DNA from: a virus
Virus record (IMG/VR): IMGVR_UViG_3300036781_000178
Location: 1-36,022 of that record
Reading direction: 5' to 3' (one strand)
Length of the DNA stretch: 36,022 nt
Shown: one piece after another, positions 50 through 19,106 of the stretch
How the letters are laid out: every line of letters starts with the position of its first letter
How positions within the stretch are numbered: position 1 is the first letter of the stretch
Program-made: the position numbers and the translations under genes
Notes under the pieces: model-generated
Told to the model about the DNA's origin: nothing
Database searches by the model: none
Seen by the model: only the letters and a program-made list of their open reading frames with translations

Positions 50-125
50 GGGTCGTTAGCTCAGCTGGTAGAGCAGCGGACTTTTAATCCGTTGGTCGCA
101 GGTTCGAATCCCGCACGGCCTACCA
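50..125 (+). tRNA. tRNA-Lys (anticodon UUU)
   Basis: A 76 nt cloverleaf. The acceptor arm is GGGTCGT (50-56) pairing with ACGGCCT (115-121), including G-U pairs. The D arm contains AGCTCAGCTGGTAGAGC. The anticodon loop is CTTTTAA with anticodon TTT, the T arm contains GGTTCGAATCC, and CCA is encoded at 123-125. It decodes AAA and AAG lysine codons. The integrase gene beginning about 290 bp away and pointing toward it makes this tRNA the likely integration target; integration into the 3' end normally leaves the tRNA functional, as it appears here. Confidence 0.95.
100..125 (+). other. Candidate prophage attachment site (attL core)
   Basis: Tyrosine integrases commonly recombine within the T arm and 3' end of tRNA genes. 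This stretch is the expected core because the tRNA is intact and the int gene lies next to it. No second copy was found in the window, as expected if the right end lies beyond it. The exact core boundaries cannot be read from one end alone, so this is an inference. Confidence 0.45.
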
Positions 126-3533: not shown

Positions 3534-4234
3534 GGCTTGATTCTCTTAAATTCGACTACCCAGACCCAGGAGTTTTCGTCCCAGGCGCCGGCGCCGTTGA
3601 TTTGATCCCAGAGCACCCGGTAAAGCTCATACGCGCTATCGTTGAAATGGGTCTTGCCATCGGGCATCGTGCATTCGTAGATGCCTTGGCACGCCATGGA
3701 GCGCTTTGCCCAGTGCGATACGCGGACGCCCTCCGCAACGGCATCGACTTCGCTGCATTCCTGCAGGCGCTGCACGCACACGCCGGTGACTTCGAGATCG
3801 ATGCGGCTGGCCACGCGCGGCATGAAGATCGCCGGGCGTTTCCACCAAAAGATACCGGTTCCGCCGCGCTTGCGCCGTTTGTAGTCCGCCGGCGGCTCAA
3901 ACTGATATTGCTCGCCCTTCTCGATCGTCTGGTCGACAAAGTGCCATTCCATCCGGTCCTTCTCCGCGCTCCAGCGCTGTTCCCAAAAGCCAAACGCGAA
4001 AAAGGTCTCTTTCACCCAGAGGCGATCGCCAGGCTGGCCGTAAGGGCATGCAATACCGTGGTCGCTGCGCATGCTGCCCCACATGGCGCCGCCGGTCGCT
4101 TTGTCGTAGTGCGGTGGCCATTCCGGCAAATAGCCGTCCGGCTGGGGGCGCAGGGGGCGCCGCGTCTGGGTCTTACTGCCGTCCAGGCAGGCGCGCACCA
4201 TCGGCGCAGACATCAATATCGGGCGCTCTTTCAC
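3530..4234 (-). CDS. Phage ASCH-like family protein
   Basis: 234 residues from a GTG start preceded by AAGGAG. The N-terminus (RPILMSAPMVRACLDGSKTQTRRPLRPQP) matches a widespread phage family whose first segment resembles an ASCH/PUA-like RNA-binding fold. The body carries PGDRLWVKETF and IFMPRVASRIDLEVTGVCVQRLQ, both typical of that family, and an end of the WVWVVEFKRI type. Some databases call relatives morphogenetic proteins, without good evidence. A nucleic-acid-binding role is inferred. Confidence 0.7.
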   Translation of the reverse strand: MKERPILMSAPMVRACLDGSKTQTRRPLRPQPDGYLPEWPPHYDKATGGAMWGSMRSDHGIACPYGQPGDRLWVKETFFAFGFWEQRWSAEKDRMEWHFVDQTIEKGEQYQFEPPADYKRRKRGGTGIFWWKRPAIFMPRVASRIDLEVTGVCVQRLQECSEVDAVAEGVRVSHWAKRSMACQGIYECTMPDGKTHFNDSAYELYRVLWDQINGAGAWDENSWVWVVEFKRIKP

Positions 4235-10030: not shown

Positions 10031-10627
10031 TCAGGCCTCCAGCGCGCGGAAGGCCGCCACCAGCGCTGCCTTGGTGGAGTTGTAAAGATCACTGGAGGCC
10101 GAGACCTCTGCGTCGGTCGGCTCCTGCGCGGTATCGCCCTCGAAGGCCTTGTCGTCCCGCAGGTCCGCCTCATCGGCGGCGATGTGCGCGGCCGCGAAGT
10201 CCTTGGCGGCCTTGACGAACGCTTCTTCCGCCTGGTCGCGCGGCGATGGCTCAGCGGTGAAATGGGTCTCCGCCAGCATGACCCGCATCAAGTCGTCGGG
10301 GGTCGGAGCGTTCACCGGGGTCTCGCCGGATTTGGTATGCGCGAGTGAATTGATCGTGCGGATCAACTCCATAGCGCCGACCAGGGTGGCCTGGCCAAGC
10401 CCGACAGCCTTGCGCCCGTTTTTCAACTGGTAGTTCATCATCGAGAACACCAGGTCGCGCGCTTCTGCGACTTTGGCCGGCTCTTCGCCGTGAAGCTCCC
10501 GCAGGGACGCCCAGAGCCAGACCAGCGTCGGCGCGTGGCAGTCGCGGCCCAGCAGGATGAACATCGGCTCATCGGGTTTTGCGTTGGCGTAGCAGTCAAA
10601 TGCGCCAGGATCGTTTTTGGTGCCCAT
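10031..10627 (-). CDS. Phage hypothetical protein
   Basis: 198 residues. The opening GAFDCYANAKPDEPMFILLG followed by RDCHAPTLVWLWASLR is typical of a phage family of unknown function. The middle is helical; the C-terminal half is acidic and alanine-rich and ends TKAALVAAFRALEA. The start overlaps the reverse transcriptase stop (TAATG), so it is coupled to the DGR in the same message although it is not a known DGR component. Confidence 0.75.
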   Translation of the reverse strand: MGTKNDPGAFDCYANAKPDEPMFILLGRDCHAPTLVWLWASLRELHGEEPAKVAEARDLVFSMMNYQLKNGRKAVGLGQATLVGAMELIRTINSLAHTKSGETPVNAPTPDDLMRVMLAETHFTAEPSPRDQAEEAFVKAAKDFAAAHIAADEADLRDDKAFEGDTAQEPTDAEVSASSDLYNSTKAALVAAFRALEA

Positions 10628-12048
10628 TAGGCCCTCCGGTAGGTTTGGGTGAGTTGCTTGTTGATTGAGTGACCACGGCGGCGCAGGATGTTCGCCAGCC
10701 GGGCGCGGTCGTGATGGGAACCCGTGGCTTGGCCGAAAACGCCGAAATAGCTGTTGGCCGTGACGAAAAGGGCTTCGCCTGCAAGGGATTCCACGCGCGA
10801 AAGTGCTTCGCGATAGGTCCGCCGGCGGGTGTAACGGTGATGGGGCTTGATCACCTGACCGACAAAATCCACGCCCCGATCGACCGGCTGCAGGATGGTT
10901 TTCGAGGGGTTCAGGCGCACCGCCAACGCCGCAGGCAGCCAGGAGTCGAGGTCCGCGAGAATTTCGTTCAGTCGCCCGGGCTCGCCCAGGAATAGGAAGT
11001 CATCGACGTACCGGATGTAATGTCGGCTGCGCAGGACGTGCTTCGCCCGCTGGTCGAGCTCATTCAGGTAGACATTGGCCAAGAACTGGCTGGAGAGATT
11101 CCCGATCGGGAGGCCGTTTTCTGCCGACTGGTTGATCAGGCGCTTGTGCGGCGGCACCTTTTCAAGCAGCTTGGGGTTGCCGCGAAACTGGAAGTTCTCG
11201 CGAACATCGTGAAACAGGACGCGGCCGGCGAGGTCCAACCACCAAGGCTCGGGGATGTGGCGCGCCAGGAGGCCAAACAGGATCGGCTTGTTGATCGTGA
11301 CGAAGAAATTCGCCAGGTCGCACTTCAGATAGTGGACGGGCTTCGTCCAATTCTCGGTCGCGCTCCGGATCTTCGATTCCAGGCGTTGGGCGGCATAGAG
11401 CGTGCCGCGGCCCGGGATGCAGGCACACGAATCAGCGATGAACATCGCGTGGAAACGCGCGGCAACGCGGTTGTAAAGGAGATGATGGACGATCCGATCG
11501 CGAAAGTCCGCCGCCCAGACCTCGCGGGATTTTGGGCGGGTGATGACGAAACAGATGCTTCGGCCGGGCGCGTAGGTGCCGGCGCGCAGCTCGTCATCCA
11601 GCGTGCCAAGGTTGCGCTCGAGGTTGACTTCGAAGGCCAGCGCGGAGGCGGTGTTTCGCTTCGTGCGCCGGCAGTCGAAATACGCGGCTACGAGCTCCGC
11701 GAAGGTGAAGTCTGCATGGTGGCGCGCGGATGGGGTAAATTGATCTGCGGACGGCACGGGCTCGGTACTCGTTGTTCTTGTGGTTGTTGTTCTGGTTGCC
11801 GTTAGCGAAGTTCTGCATCCAGGCATAGTCCGAGTTCTGAGCGTGCTGCGTCCATTCGCGCTATCTACGTCGCCCCGCCGAGCATCGATGGCCTTCAGCG
11901 GGGAAACTGCACCGGACCGGGCCTGCTGACTCGCAGCGGTATCCGGGATGTGCATGTCCGTGGCCTTGTGAGCCAGGGGCGCGACCAGATTAAAAGTCGC
12001 ACTGTCCGGGCGGCCGTGACCACTCGGAAACTGGCGATCGCTATTCAT
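10627..12048 (-). CDS. Diversity-generating retroelement reverse transcriptase
   Basis: Copies the template repeat RNA into adenine-mutagenised cDNA. From ATG 12048, whose 8 bp overlap with avd implies coupling, the frame is 473 residues. DGR-type motifs: the motif A Asp in LKCDLANFF (Asp243), GLPIGNLSSQFLANVYLNEL (312-331) with the DGR-typical SQ in place of SP, and IRYVDDF (catalytic Asp349-Asp350). The C-terminal thumb contains NPSKTILQPVDRGVDFVGQV. The recognisable enzyme begins near residue 114 (FTFAELVAAYFDCRR). Residues 66-102 are the template repeat read in another frame and are threonine-rich. An in-frame GTG at 11757, inside the TR, would give 376 residues, the usual DGR size, so the start is uncertain. 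Confidence 0.96.
   Translation of the reverse strand: MNSDRQFPSGHGRPDSATFNLVAPLAHKATDMHIPDTAASQQARSGAVSPLKAIDARRGDVDSANGRSTLRTRTMPGCRTSLTATRTTTTRTTSTEPVPSADQFTPSARHHADFTFAELVAAYFDCRRTKRNTASALAFEVNLERNLGTLDDELRAGTYAPGRSICFVITRPKSREVWAADFRDRIVHHLLYNRVAARFHAMFIADSCACIPGRGTLYAAQRLESKIRSATENWTKPVHYLKCDLANFFVTINKPILFGLLARHIPEPWWLDLAGRVLFHDVRENFQFRGNPKLLEKVPPHKRLINQSAENGLPIGNLSSQFLANVYLNELDQRAKHVLRSRHYIRYVDDFLFLGEPGRLNEILADLDSWLPAALAVRLNPSKTILQPVDRGVDFVGQVIKPHHRYTRRRTYREALSRVESLAGEALFVTANSYFGVFGQATGSHHDRARLANILRRRGHSINKQLTQTYRRA
11743..11851 (-). repeat. DGR template repeat (TR)
   Basis: An adenine-rich repeat on the minus strand. In the target frame it would encode a run of AAC codons (AWMQNFANGNQNNNHKNNEY). 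The 3' end (plus strand 11745-11771, starting CTGCGGACGGC) is identical to VR1 and VR2 and is the candidate initiation-of-mutagenic-homing region. The rest differs from the three VRs almost only where the minus strand has A. It lies between avd and the reverse transcriptase core, inside the reverse transcriptase open frame. Confidence 0.95.
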
Positions 12049-12385
12049 AATGCTTTTTCCATCCGTTGGCCTGCTTGCCGATCGAGTTCGTGTGCTCGAC
12101 CGCCTGGGCGTATTGCGGCTGCGAAATCAGCTTCAGGTCCTGGCAAAGGCGAAGCGTGATCTGGACAACCTCAAGCCGCTCAAGGATCTTCTGCAGGTGC
12201 GGGACCTTGTCATCGGCGGAATTCGCCCGATAGATCAAGAGCACCACGGCGACGCATTCCTTGCGAAGCTCGGTGCCGAGGTCGGACTTAAAATCCCTCG
12301 GCATGTTGCGGACGAAAGCCGCGACGAGCTTGAGCAAGTCGTACGTCACCTTGTAGATCGGCAATTTGGCGTGTGGGGCGACCAT
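12041..12385 (-). CDS. avd: DGR accessory variability determinant Avd
   Basis: 114 residues, helical throughout and basic. It matches the Avd/four-helix-bundle family: LPIYKVTYDLLKLVAAFVRN, PRDFKSDLGTELRKECVAVV, LLIYRANSADDKVPHLQKIL, LEVVQITLRLCQDLKLISQ and a final GKQANGWKKHYE. Avd forms a pentamer that binds the reverse transcriptase and template RNA and is required for mutagenic retrohoming (family knowledge). It starts 16 bp after the VR1 target stop and overlaps the reverse transcriptase ATG, giving the order target-avd-TR-RT. Confidence 0.93.
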   Translation of the reverse strand: MVAPHAKLPIYKVTYDLLKLVAAFVRNMPRDFKSDLGTELRKECVAVVLLIYRANSADDKVPHLQKILERLEVVQITLRLCQDLKLISQPQYAQAVEHTNSIGKQANGWKKHYE

Positions 12386-12401: not shown

Positions 12402-12923
12402 TTACTGAATGACTAATCTGCGGACGGCACGGGCTCGGTACTCGCCGCCCTTGCGGTAGCCGTACTGGTCGCCGTAAGCGAAGTCCTGCACCCAGGCACA
12501 GTCCGAGCCCTGAGCGTGCTGCTCGGAAGTCCAGTGCCAGTTTTCGGAAAACTCGCCATTGAGGTTCCGAAACAGCGTGAGGCCGTCATAGCGGGTCATC
12601 AGCGACCAGTCGTCGAAGCCTTCGGTCCGCAGATCGCCGGCCCAAGCCTTGGCCGCTTCCCAGTCAAGACGATGTTCACGCTCGGTCTGGGCGAGGACCA
12701 GGTGACACGCCCGGCCGTCATCGGTGATCGAGAGGCCGGCGTAAATGCCGCCCTGCCCCGCCCAGACTTCGCCGATCGCCGGCGGAGTCATGATTGCTGC
12801 GGGTGATGCGCCGCCCTTGCGCATGAGGTCCGCCAGCCAGAGGCGGCCCAGCGTTTCGGCATCGATCGAGACATCAGCCCCGGCAATCTTGAGGTGCACC
12901 GGGCCTTTCGTGAGAGTTTCCAT
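12402..12923 (-). CDS. DGR target protein 1 (carries VR1)
   Basis: 173 residues from ATG 12923 with an AAGGA site upstream; the longer upstream frame is shadow of target 2. The N-terminus (1-50) is helical. Residues 51-80 read IGEVWAGQGGIYAGLSITDD and CHLVLAQ, and a DDWSLMTRYDGLTLF segment follows. The C-terminal part from WHWTSEQHAQ to EYRARAVRRLVIQ is the diversified region. This is the C-type-lectin-like/DUF1566-like scaffold on which DGR variable residues are displayed. About a dozen positions between 138 and 161 correspond to TR adenines. It is a paralogue of the VR3 protein. The ligand is unknown; expression from the early promoter argues against a tail fibre. Confidence 0.9.
   Translation of the reverse strand: METLTKGPVHLKIAGADVSIDAETLGRLWLADLMRKGGASPAAIMTPPAIGEVWAGQGGIYAGLSITDDGRACHLVLAQTEREHRLDWEAAKAWAGDLRTEGFDDWSLMTRYDGLTLFRNLNGEFSENWHWTSEQHAQGSDCAWVQDFAYGDQYGYRKGGEYRARAVRRLVIQ
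12416..12522 (-). repeat. DGR variable repeat 1 (VR1)
   Basis: Aligned without gaps to the TR. In the 77 bp variable core I count 16 differences, all at positions where the minus-strand TR has adenine. The 27 bp 3' segment is identical to the TR. Identity ends upstream at about 12522. Confidence 0.94.
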
Positions 12924-12976: not shown

Positions 12977-13591
12977 CTAAATTTTTAACCTGCGGACGGC
13001 ACGGGCTCGGTACTCGCCGCCCTTGCGGCTGAGGTCCTGGTAGCCGCCAGCGAAGCCCTGCAGCCAGGCACACGCCGAGTCCTGAGCGCGCTGCGTAGAG
13101 GACCAGTACCAGGCCTCTTCGAACGCTTCAGCGCCGCCCGAGGCAAAGGCCGGCACCTGGGTGATTGCCGGAAGCGCATCGGTATAGGGATAGCCAGGCG
13201 GTACGCTGCTGGGGTTGTCGCCATCGCGATATCCCAGGTTTTTCCGCGTCGTCGGCTTGAAGTGGCGGTACAGCAATTCCAGTTGGTCGCGCGCAGGCAG
13301 ATGCCAATCGGTCTCGCCATCGATATCCAGGCTGAGGACGGATTGCGCCAGCGGGCTGCCAGCTTCGGCCATCGCGCGGGTGTTCGACATGCCGTCGAAA
13401 AAGCTCAGGGCGCCGGCGACGGACTTCAGGTTCTTGTTCCAGCGGACGGGCGCGAAGTCGCCGATCTTTCCGGAGACGATCAGCAGGCAGAGCTGATCAC
13501 CCTCGAGATAGCGGCCTGCGTAGTAGCCGCCGGCGAACGGGGTGCCGACGACGTCGGGGATGCTGATTGCTGCTGCGGTGAGTGCGTTCAT
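12977..13591 (-). CDS. DGR target protein 2 (carries VR2), DUF1566-like
   Basis: 204 residues from ATG 13591, preceded by a strong GGAAGGAA site. Residues 15-40 (VGTPFAGGYYAGRYLEGDQL) parallel the YAG segment of targets 1 and 3. Residues 90-110 (DIDGETDWHLPARDQLELLY) and 161-166 (WYWSST) match the DUF1566/Lcl C-terminal family, a formylglycine-generating-enzyme-like (C-type lectin) fold used by many DGR variable proteins. The VR spans about 166-201 and ends EYRARAVRRLKI. It is the longest and most divergent of the three targets and lies between rdgC and target 1. The binding partner is unknown. Confidence 0.9.
   Translation of the reverse strand: MNALTAAAISIPDVVGTPFAGGYYAGRYLEGDQLCLLIVSGKIGDFAPVRWNKNLKSVAGALSFFDGMSNTRAMAEAGSPLAQSVLSLDIDGETDWHLPARDQLELLYRHFKPTTRKNLGYRDGDNPSSVPPGYPYTDALPAITQVPAFASGGAEAFEEAWYWSSTQRAQDSACAWLQGFAGGYQDLSRKGGEYRARAVRRLKI
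12990..13096 (-). repeat. DGR variable repeat 2 (VR2)
   Basis: Gap-free alignment to the TR. I count 20 differences in the 77 bp core, 19 at template adenines and one (plus-strand 13073, G to C) elsewhere. The 27 bp 3' block is identical to the TR. It is the most heavily altered of the three repeats. Confidence 0.93.
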
Positions 13592-18614: not shown

Positions 18615-19106
18615 TTACTGAATGACTAATCTGCGGACGGCGCGGGCTCGGTACTCGCTGCTCTTGCGGGTGCCGTACTGGCTGCCGCTGCCGAAGACCT
18701 GCACCCAGGCATAGGCCGAGTCCTGAGCGTGCTGCTCCGAAGTCCAGTGCCAGCCGTCGCCGAACTGGTCCTTGAGGTTGTTGAACAGGACAATCCCGTC
18801 ATGACGATTCGGGAGCGACCAGTCGCGGGCGTTGTCCGTGGTGGTCAATTCGGCCGCCCAGGCCTTCGCGGCTTCCCAGTTGTGCTTCAGGTCGCGGTCG
18901 GTGTCGGCGAGGACCAGGTGGCAGGGCTGGCCGTTGTCGTCGAGCGAGAAGCCCGCGTAGATGCCACCCTGCCAGCGCTTGCCGATCGTCGCCGGCGGAA
19001 GCAACGCCGCGACCGGGGCGGCTTCGCGCTGCAGGCGCTCCAGCAGGAGCTTGGTGATCTGGTCTTCGTGGATAGCTATTTCGATTCCGTTGATGATGAG
19101 GTTCAT
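18615..19106 (-). CDS. DGR target protein 3 (carries VR3)
   Basis: 163 residues from ATG 19106 (MNLIINGIEIAIHEDQI), which overlaps the HNH stop (ATGA); the longer upstream frame is shadow. It is a paralogue of target 1: IGKRWQGGIYAGFSLDDNGQ, CHLVLADTDRDLKHNWEAAK and RDWSLPNRHDGIVLF, then WHWTSEQHAQ and the VR ending EYRARAVRRLVIQ. The C-type-lectin-like variable surface is expected at 129-150. It lies about 6.9 kb from the TR, separated by six genes, so it is a remote second locus of the same DGR. Its 3' flank is identical to that of target 1 over 38 bp. Confidence 0.9.
   Translation of the reverse strand: MNLIINGIEIAIHEDQITKLLLERLQREAAPVAALLPPATIGKRWQGGIYAGFSLDDNGQPCHLVLADTDRDLKHNWEAAKAWAAELTTTDNARDWSLPNRHDGIVLFNNLKDQFGDGWHWTSEQHAQDSAYAWVQVFGSGSQYGTRKSSEYRARAVRRLVIQ
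18629..18735 (-). repeat. DGR variable repeat 3 (VR3)
   Basis: Gap-free alignment to the TR. I count 16 differences in the 77 bp core, 14 at template adenines and two adjacent ones not (18690-18691, changing an Ala codon to Gly). One silent change also lies in the 27 bp 3' block (18642). It is the least faithful of the three to the present TR. Confidence 0.92.

Follow-up and report, generated by a model that had tools for sequence, protein, structure and literature searches.

The DNA analysed here is a viral sequence of 36,022 nucleotides (IMG/VR record IMGVR_UViG_3300036781_000178, positions 1 to 36,022; referred to below as the window), a 36 kb record that may be a fragment. Its minus strand carries a complete diversity-generating retroelement (DGR) made up of two nearby genes with a variable repeat (VR), the avd gene, a template repeat (TR) and a reverse transcriptase (RT) gene, together with a remote third VR. 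We propose that this element belongs to a clade of DGRs with the gapless order avd, RT-15 structured RNA, TR and RT, in which the same bases would serve as template RNA and as the 5′ coding sequence of the RT, the N-terminal extension encoded by them being an unfolded passenger; we put the probability of this reading at about 0.82. As far as sequence comparison reaches, it demonstrates the overlap itself, the locking of its phase and a conservation of the upstream bases that is of RNA type.

A first-pass annotation of the window had reported a frame that starts at ATG 12048, overlaps avd and runs without a stop through the whole TR into the RT, with recognisable RT sequence only past the TR. 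Each of these observations was reproduced: the frame comprises 473 codons and ends at a stop at 10627, ATG 12048 overlaps the avd stop by 8 nt as ATGAATAG, and RT core similarity begins at 11721. Read in the RT frame, which is shifted by one base from the VR frame, the TR is translated as ..TATRTTTTRTTS... An in-frame GTG at 11757 had also been pointed out, and this codon is indeed present and would give a protein of 376 aa, but two further in-frame starts had been overlooked, namely ATG 11955, which lies in RT-15 and would give 442 aa, and ATG 11826, which lies in the TR and would give 399 aa. Shine-Dalgarno energies were -5.7 for ATG 12048, -3.0 for ATG 11955, +0.2 for ATG 11826 and -2.5 for GTG 11757. 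The description of an extension of roughly 100 residues encoded by the TR had to be corrected: the extension has about 109 residues, made up of about 64 codons of RT-15, 36 of TR and 7 of linker, and most of it is encoded by RT-15 rather than by the TR because Rfam RT-15 matches the stretch between avd and the TR. Without homologues, the open frame of the window would carry little weight as evidence; 7% of Markov-shuffled sequences were open over the same 109 codons.

We therefore turn to homologous loci, of which 80 from IMG/VR, 43 from genomes and 4 from phage records were gathered and 124 were usable; phases were counted over 89 RT clusters, and length changes were inferred on the RT tree by parsimony. 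The TR and the RT core are directly adjacent in 119 of the 124 loci. From a conserved motif, AATCTGGTC, to the RT core, the RT frame was free of stops in 69 of 77 loci, as compared with 10/77 and 1/77 for the other two frames, and stops within the TR were present in the RT frame of a single cluster out of 89 and in 36 of the 89 for the remaining frame, which serves neither VR nor RT. Between the TR 3′ end and the RT core, ten different lengths occurred (-2 to 28 nt), all of a single phase, and every one of the 32 inferred length changes was a multiple of 3 (p=5e-16). Because these changes are all in phase while the VR frame stops at the TR end, they argue for translation across the TR/RT junction, and we see no other explanation for the fixed TR-to-core phase. 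The phase constraint weakened going upstream from the RT core: 17/19 length changes were in phase between the RT-15 3′ motif and the TR 3′ end, 16/27 inside RT-15 (p=0.005) and 12/32 between the avd stop and RT-15, a chance level that provided a built-in control. The observation that the first-pass annotation had named as refuting translation of the extension, stops or indels between avd and the TR in homologues, was made in part: the frame is locked across TR and RT, but the interval from avd to RT-15 is unphased and about 11 inferred changes break the frame within RT-15. An Avd-RT fusion or readthrough by frameshifting was rejected on the unphased avd-to-RT-15 length. A stop-free TR in the RT frame was also rejected as proof by itself; the same TR frame is open in four loci in which an insertion leaves the TR non-coding for the RT, and the argument therefore rests on phase and start codons.

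Start codons were examined across the same clusters. No ATG, GTG or TTG is found from the TR start to the RT core in 24 of the 89 clusters, and because of this absence initiation in these 24 would have to lie upstream of the TR. The probable start in relatives is an ATG 18 nt before the invariant AATCTGGTC, which has an unusually strong Shine-Dalgarno sequence (median energy -10.0 against a background of -2.1, 53 clusters). In 33 clusters this ATG shares an 8-nt overlap with the avd stop; the window has an equal overlap at another upstream ATG, 12048. By arithmetic, the counterpart of ATG 11955 would give 427 aa, which is the annotated RT length in Burkholderia phage Magia. Annotated RT lengths in related records are 427, 343, 386 and 369 aa, and automatic calls of the RT start appear unreliable in these phages. 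In all 15 clusters in which RT-15 is out of phase or closed by a stop, a TR-internal start is present (Fisher p=0.009). That TR bases are RT coding bases, through an extension or through a start within the template, had been the central claim of the earlier annotation; it is well backed by the 119 loci, with their locked phase and the many among them that have no start after the TR begins, and both alternatives appear to occur in different lineages because all 15 clusters with a broken phase or a stop keep a TR-internal start. We conclude from this comparison that the RT coding frame of the clade includes TR bases, mostly by way of an upstream start and in some lineages by way of a TR-internal one.

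It is possible, though we regard it as unlikely, that the RT of the window itself starts inside the TR, at GTG 11757 or ATG 11826, in which case only the 3′ part of the TR would be coding and the open frame through RT-15 would be an accident of RNA conservation. Such a start is the sole option in 16 loci (8 clusters), the annotated RT lengths of phages Cruim01 and Haboob agree with TR-internal starts, and the conserved RT-15 sequence CGTAGATAGC by itself closes both other frames. However, the ribosome sites of the two codons in the window are poor (+0.2 and -2.5) and 4% of the TR-internal ATGs in the clade reach a Shine-Dalgarno energy of -4 or better; the phase is also held upstream of the TR (17/19 and 16/27), and the 24 clusters mentioned above have no TR start at all.

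Several points weigh against our main reading. Within RT-15 the phase is held no more than moderately, with a broken frame in several lineages, and the Shine-Dalgarno energies of the window starts at 12048 and 11955 are modest. Ties in the parsimony down-pass were settled toward in-phase changes, which leaves the 32/32 count unaffected, and the clusters share ancestry and are not fully independent.

The nature of the sequence between avd and the TR had been missed by the first-pass annotation. A covariance match to RT-15 (RF03018) extends from 12039 to 11849 over the full length of the model (1-192) with 158.4 bits (E=3.1e-38; gathering score 82) and ends on the first TR base, and by this match the window is a member of RT-15. 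The RNA was present in all sixteen further clade loci scanned with Rfam, including three in which the TR is separated from the RT, and compensatory changes were identified at 30 of 45 RT-15 consensus pairs in an alignment of 51 homologues. The probable start of the relatives, the ATG described above, forms the 3′ arm of a covarying hairpin, and this hairpin persists in the alignment where the ATG is lost, as in locus L039, in which CCGC...GCGG replaces CATGG...CCATG. No literature on RT-15 RNA was found among the papers that could be searched. As most of the extension is RT-15, the upstream ‘protein’ sequence is conserved as RNA.

This was examined further at the protein level. Substitutions at codon positions 1/2/3, counted over 42 sister pairs, were 104/76/300 in the RT core, 173/169/200 in RT-15 and 65/145/77 in the TR, the RT-15 counts being flat and the TR counts showing the third-position excess of the VR frame. 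AlphaFold predicted residues 1-110 to be disordered (pLDDT 26-42) and the remainder to be mostly well folded (82-98). We interpret these patterns as selection of the RT-15 bases of the extension for their RNA and of the TR bases for their coding role in the VR frame, and the extension itself is probably of no worth as protein, a passenger sequence. A functional N-terminal RT domain encoded by the upstream segment is very improbable. The conservation in most loci of the RT-frame peptide MTERSFNLVVPLAHKATAMR..RSGAVS..GDVDST would speak for it, but the segment is Rfam RT-15, and the domain reading was rejected on the codon-position counts and the covariation; in L012, L032, L053 and the L037 group the segment is moreover conserved although it is out of frame, and its predicted disorder argues in the same direction, as does its absence from the RT of loci with an inserted gene.

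In four loci (L023, L045, L052 and L122) an unrelated gene is inserted directly after the TR, methyltransferase-like in two of them by reading of the sequence. The RT of these loci lacks the extension and starts at an ATG 0-3 codons before the core, which overlaps the stop of the inserted gene in L023, L045 and L122. In three of the four, some 35 nt similar to the start of the RT coding sequence persist after the TR. It is also very improbable that the overlap is an artefact of annotation and that the RT starts at a non-standard codon directly after the TR. Core homology does begin only past the TR, and the RTs of the insertion loci start there, but this would leave the conserved TR/RT phase (32/32) unexplained, and an in-frame CTG, ATT, ATC or ATA is found just before the core in few loci. 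As a separate observation, over the first ten codons of the RT core (11692-11721 and homologues) Phe is encoded by TTT in 52% of cases, as compared with 24% in the remainder of the gene; this may be either a vestige of a former translation start or a constraint on the nucleotide sequence beside the TR.

Based on these results, we propose that RT translation would begin at the avd/RT-15 boundary or inside RT-15 and, in a minority of lineages, within the TR itself. Ribosomes would then translate RT-15 and the TR, shifted by one base relative to the VR frame, before entering the RT, and the extra 60-110 residues would be carried as an unfolded passenger, with translation of avd and the RT possibly coupled. 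We infer that the long RT form is made and that one transcript is both mRNA and template, the choice of use being made by RT-15 folding or RT-Avd binding: translating ribosomes would melt RT-15 and the TR, and folding or binding would hide the start region so that the RNA turns into template. At the 5′ edge of the TR, RT-15 would also be well placed to halt cDNA synthesis. It is a serious, if lesser, possibility that distinct promoters give rise to template RNA and RT mRNA as two separate transcripts, so that the overlap would exist only on the DNA and no switch of a single RNA would occur. RT-15 and the TR do stay together in the four insertion loci, as separate transcripts would allow, but the 8-nt overlap of avd and RT in the window suggests co-translation, and if so the shared transcript must contain RT-15 and the TR.

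Assignment of the window element to the DGRs was based on an adenine-specific TR/VR pair, an RT motif and an Avd protein. TR adenines are the site of 50 of the 55 mismatches between the TR and its three VRs (16/16, 14/17 and 20/22). The RT translation contains LPIGNLSSQ, and with it the DGR motif IGNLSSQ, of the type (I/V/L)GxxxSQ given for DGR RTs in the 2012 DiGReF report (PMC3521204), as well as the catalytic YVDD; RVT_1 (PF00078, 1.8e-12) and PHROG 1423 reverse transcriptase (9e-101) span RT residues 114-468. Both nearby target genes end in an Lcl_C (C-type-lectin-like) region that carries the VR. The third VR lies 5.6 kb away from the TR-proximal ones, which gives the window DGR at least three targets. 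Coordinates are collected in Table 1; a tRNA gene (Rfam tRNA) is located near the start of the window at 50-122 (+).

Table 1. Positions of the DGR features in the window
Feature	Positions	Strand	Details
RT open frame, longest form	10627..12048	-	473 aa, ATG 12048; RT core from 11721 (residue 110)
RT-15 structured RNA (Rfam RF03018)	11849..12039	-	fills entire avd-TR interval
TR	11743..11849	-	repeat family D2; adenine-specific mismatches to three VRs; RT frame one base off VR frame
Linker, TR 3′ end to RT core	11722..11742	-	7 codons
avd (accessory variability determinant)	12041..12385	-	Pfam bAvd PF22296 1.9e-15; PHROG 3206 Avd 9.5e-32
VR, nearer target gene	12416..12522	-	Lcl_C domain 2.4e-07, under Pfam's cut-off
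VR, second target gene	12988..13094	-	Lcl_C domain 1.5e-10
Third, remote VR	18629..18735	-	in a paralogous target gene whose ORF ends at 18615
Alternative start ATG inside RT-15	11953..11955	-	442 aa; conserved as part of RNA
In-frame GTG inside TR	11755..11757	-	376 aa

The window element resembles the BPP-1 DGR (mtd-avd-TR-brt) in its order of VR gene, avd, TR and RT, in its adenine-specific TR/VR differences and in the position of avd directly upstream, and its RT belongs to the same broad family, with 30% identity to the BPP-1 RT. In BPP-1 (locus L136), the TR (3684-3817) is followed by the Phage_DGR RNA (RF03022, 3822-3954) and brt starts at 3962. BPP-1 thus has its structured RNA on the 3′ side of the TR, within a spacer of 144 nt after which brt starts. 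The RT-15 clade, by contrast, has its RNA on the 5′ side and no spacer, and its TR abuts the RT core and lies inside the RT frame. This bears out the earlier remark that bases shared by template and RT are unlike the separate TR and RT of BPP-1, whose brt starts past both TR and spacer. The BPP-1 spacer recruits bRT-Avd and provides the priming adenine (PMC12875486). BalMu-1 (a Bacillus phage, RT-14) and FP_Mushu (a Faecalibacterium phage, RT-9) have an RT-n RNA beside the TR as here, but on its 3′ side, between TR and RT. The RT-15 clade fits the DGR features tested and does not have the BPP-1 layout.

Overlap of the TR with the annotated RT open reading frame was defined as a structural class, group 3, in the DiGReF report of 2012 (PMC3521204), and the bare TR-in-RT architecture, found in the window as in that group, is for this reason not new. 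In the accessible part of the report the overlap is at the same annotation level, and phase, start sites, translation and a link to structured RNA are not treated. Our literature search, from which subscription journals were mostly absent, found no description of the fixed phase, the RT-15 link, the start sites or a control RNA placed 5′ instead of 3′ of the TR. Three loci that fall outside the RT-15 clade, at 28-37% RT identity, likewise have a TR directly adjoining the RT, namely L130 (Bacteroides phage F2), L138 and L139; in L130 and L138 the RT frame closes within the TR or shortly after it, in L139 it stays open across the TR, and Rfam identified no RNA in any of the three. The record MT835523 is likewise an example of a DGR outside RT-15 with such an adjacency. 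In L133 and L134 (Aeromonas phage phiARM81mr and Pseudoalteromonas phage ACA1) the annotated RT begins at the end of avd, 84-90 codons ahead of the core, and spans a TR lying 240-123 nt upstream; this may be a second, independently arisen example of a TR within an RT frame.

Tentatively, the RT-15 clade may be viewed as a permuted DGR, with the control RNA 5′ of the TR, no 3′ spacer outside RT coding sequence, the start codon in the template's hairpin and one RNA switching between messenger and template; priming of the cDNA would then have to differ from that of BPP-1. A BPP-1-like spacer hidden in the first RT codons was considered and rejected. Synonymous divergence in RT codons 1-45 is reduced only slightly (0.25-0.29; later mostly 0.30-0.42, yet 0.25 at codons 136-150), and the 89 clusters showed no conserved folding from the TR end to core+165 nt (4 pairs and -0.8 kcal/mol vs 40 pairs and -49 for RT-15). 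Rfam identified nothing besides RT-15 near the TR of the window. A priming clamp between the invariant AAUCUG of RT-15 and the TR 3′ end, CAGAU(U/C), was likewise not retained other than as an idea: this pairing was the best offset tested (36/87), but with so many offsets a 6-bp match between two conserved motifs is to be expected by chance, and no convincing covariation was seen.

If our reading is right, one RNA would be translated and reverse transcribed over the same bases, and ribosomes and RT would therefore compete for it. This competition may constitute a built-in control of the level of the element's own enzyme, in a clade that would operate without the 3′ spacer that underlies recruitment and self-priming in BPP-1.
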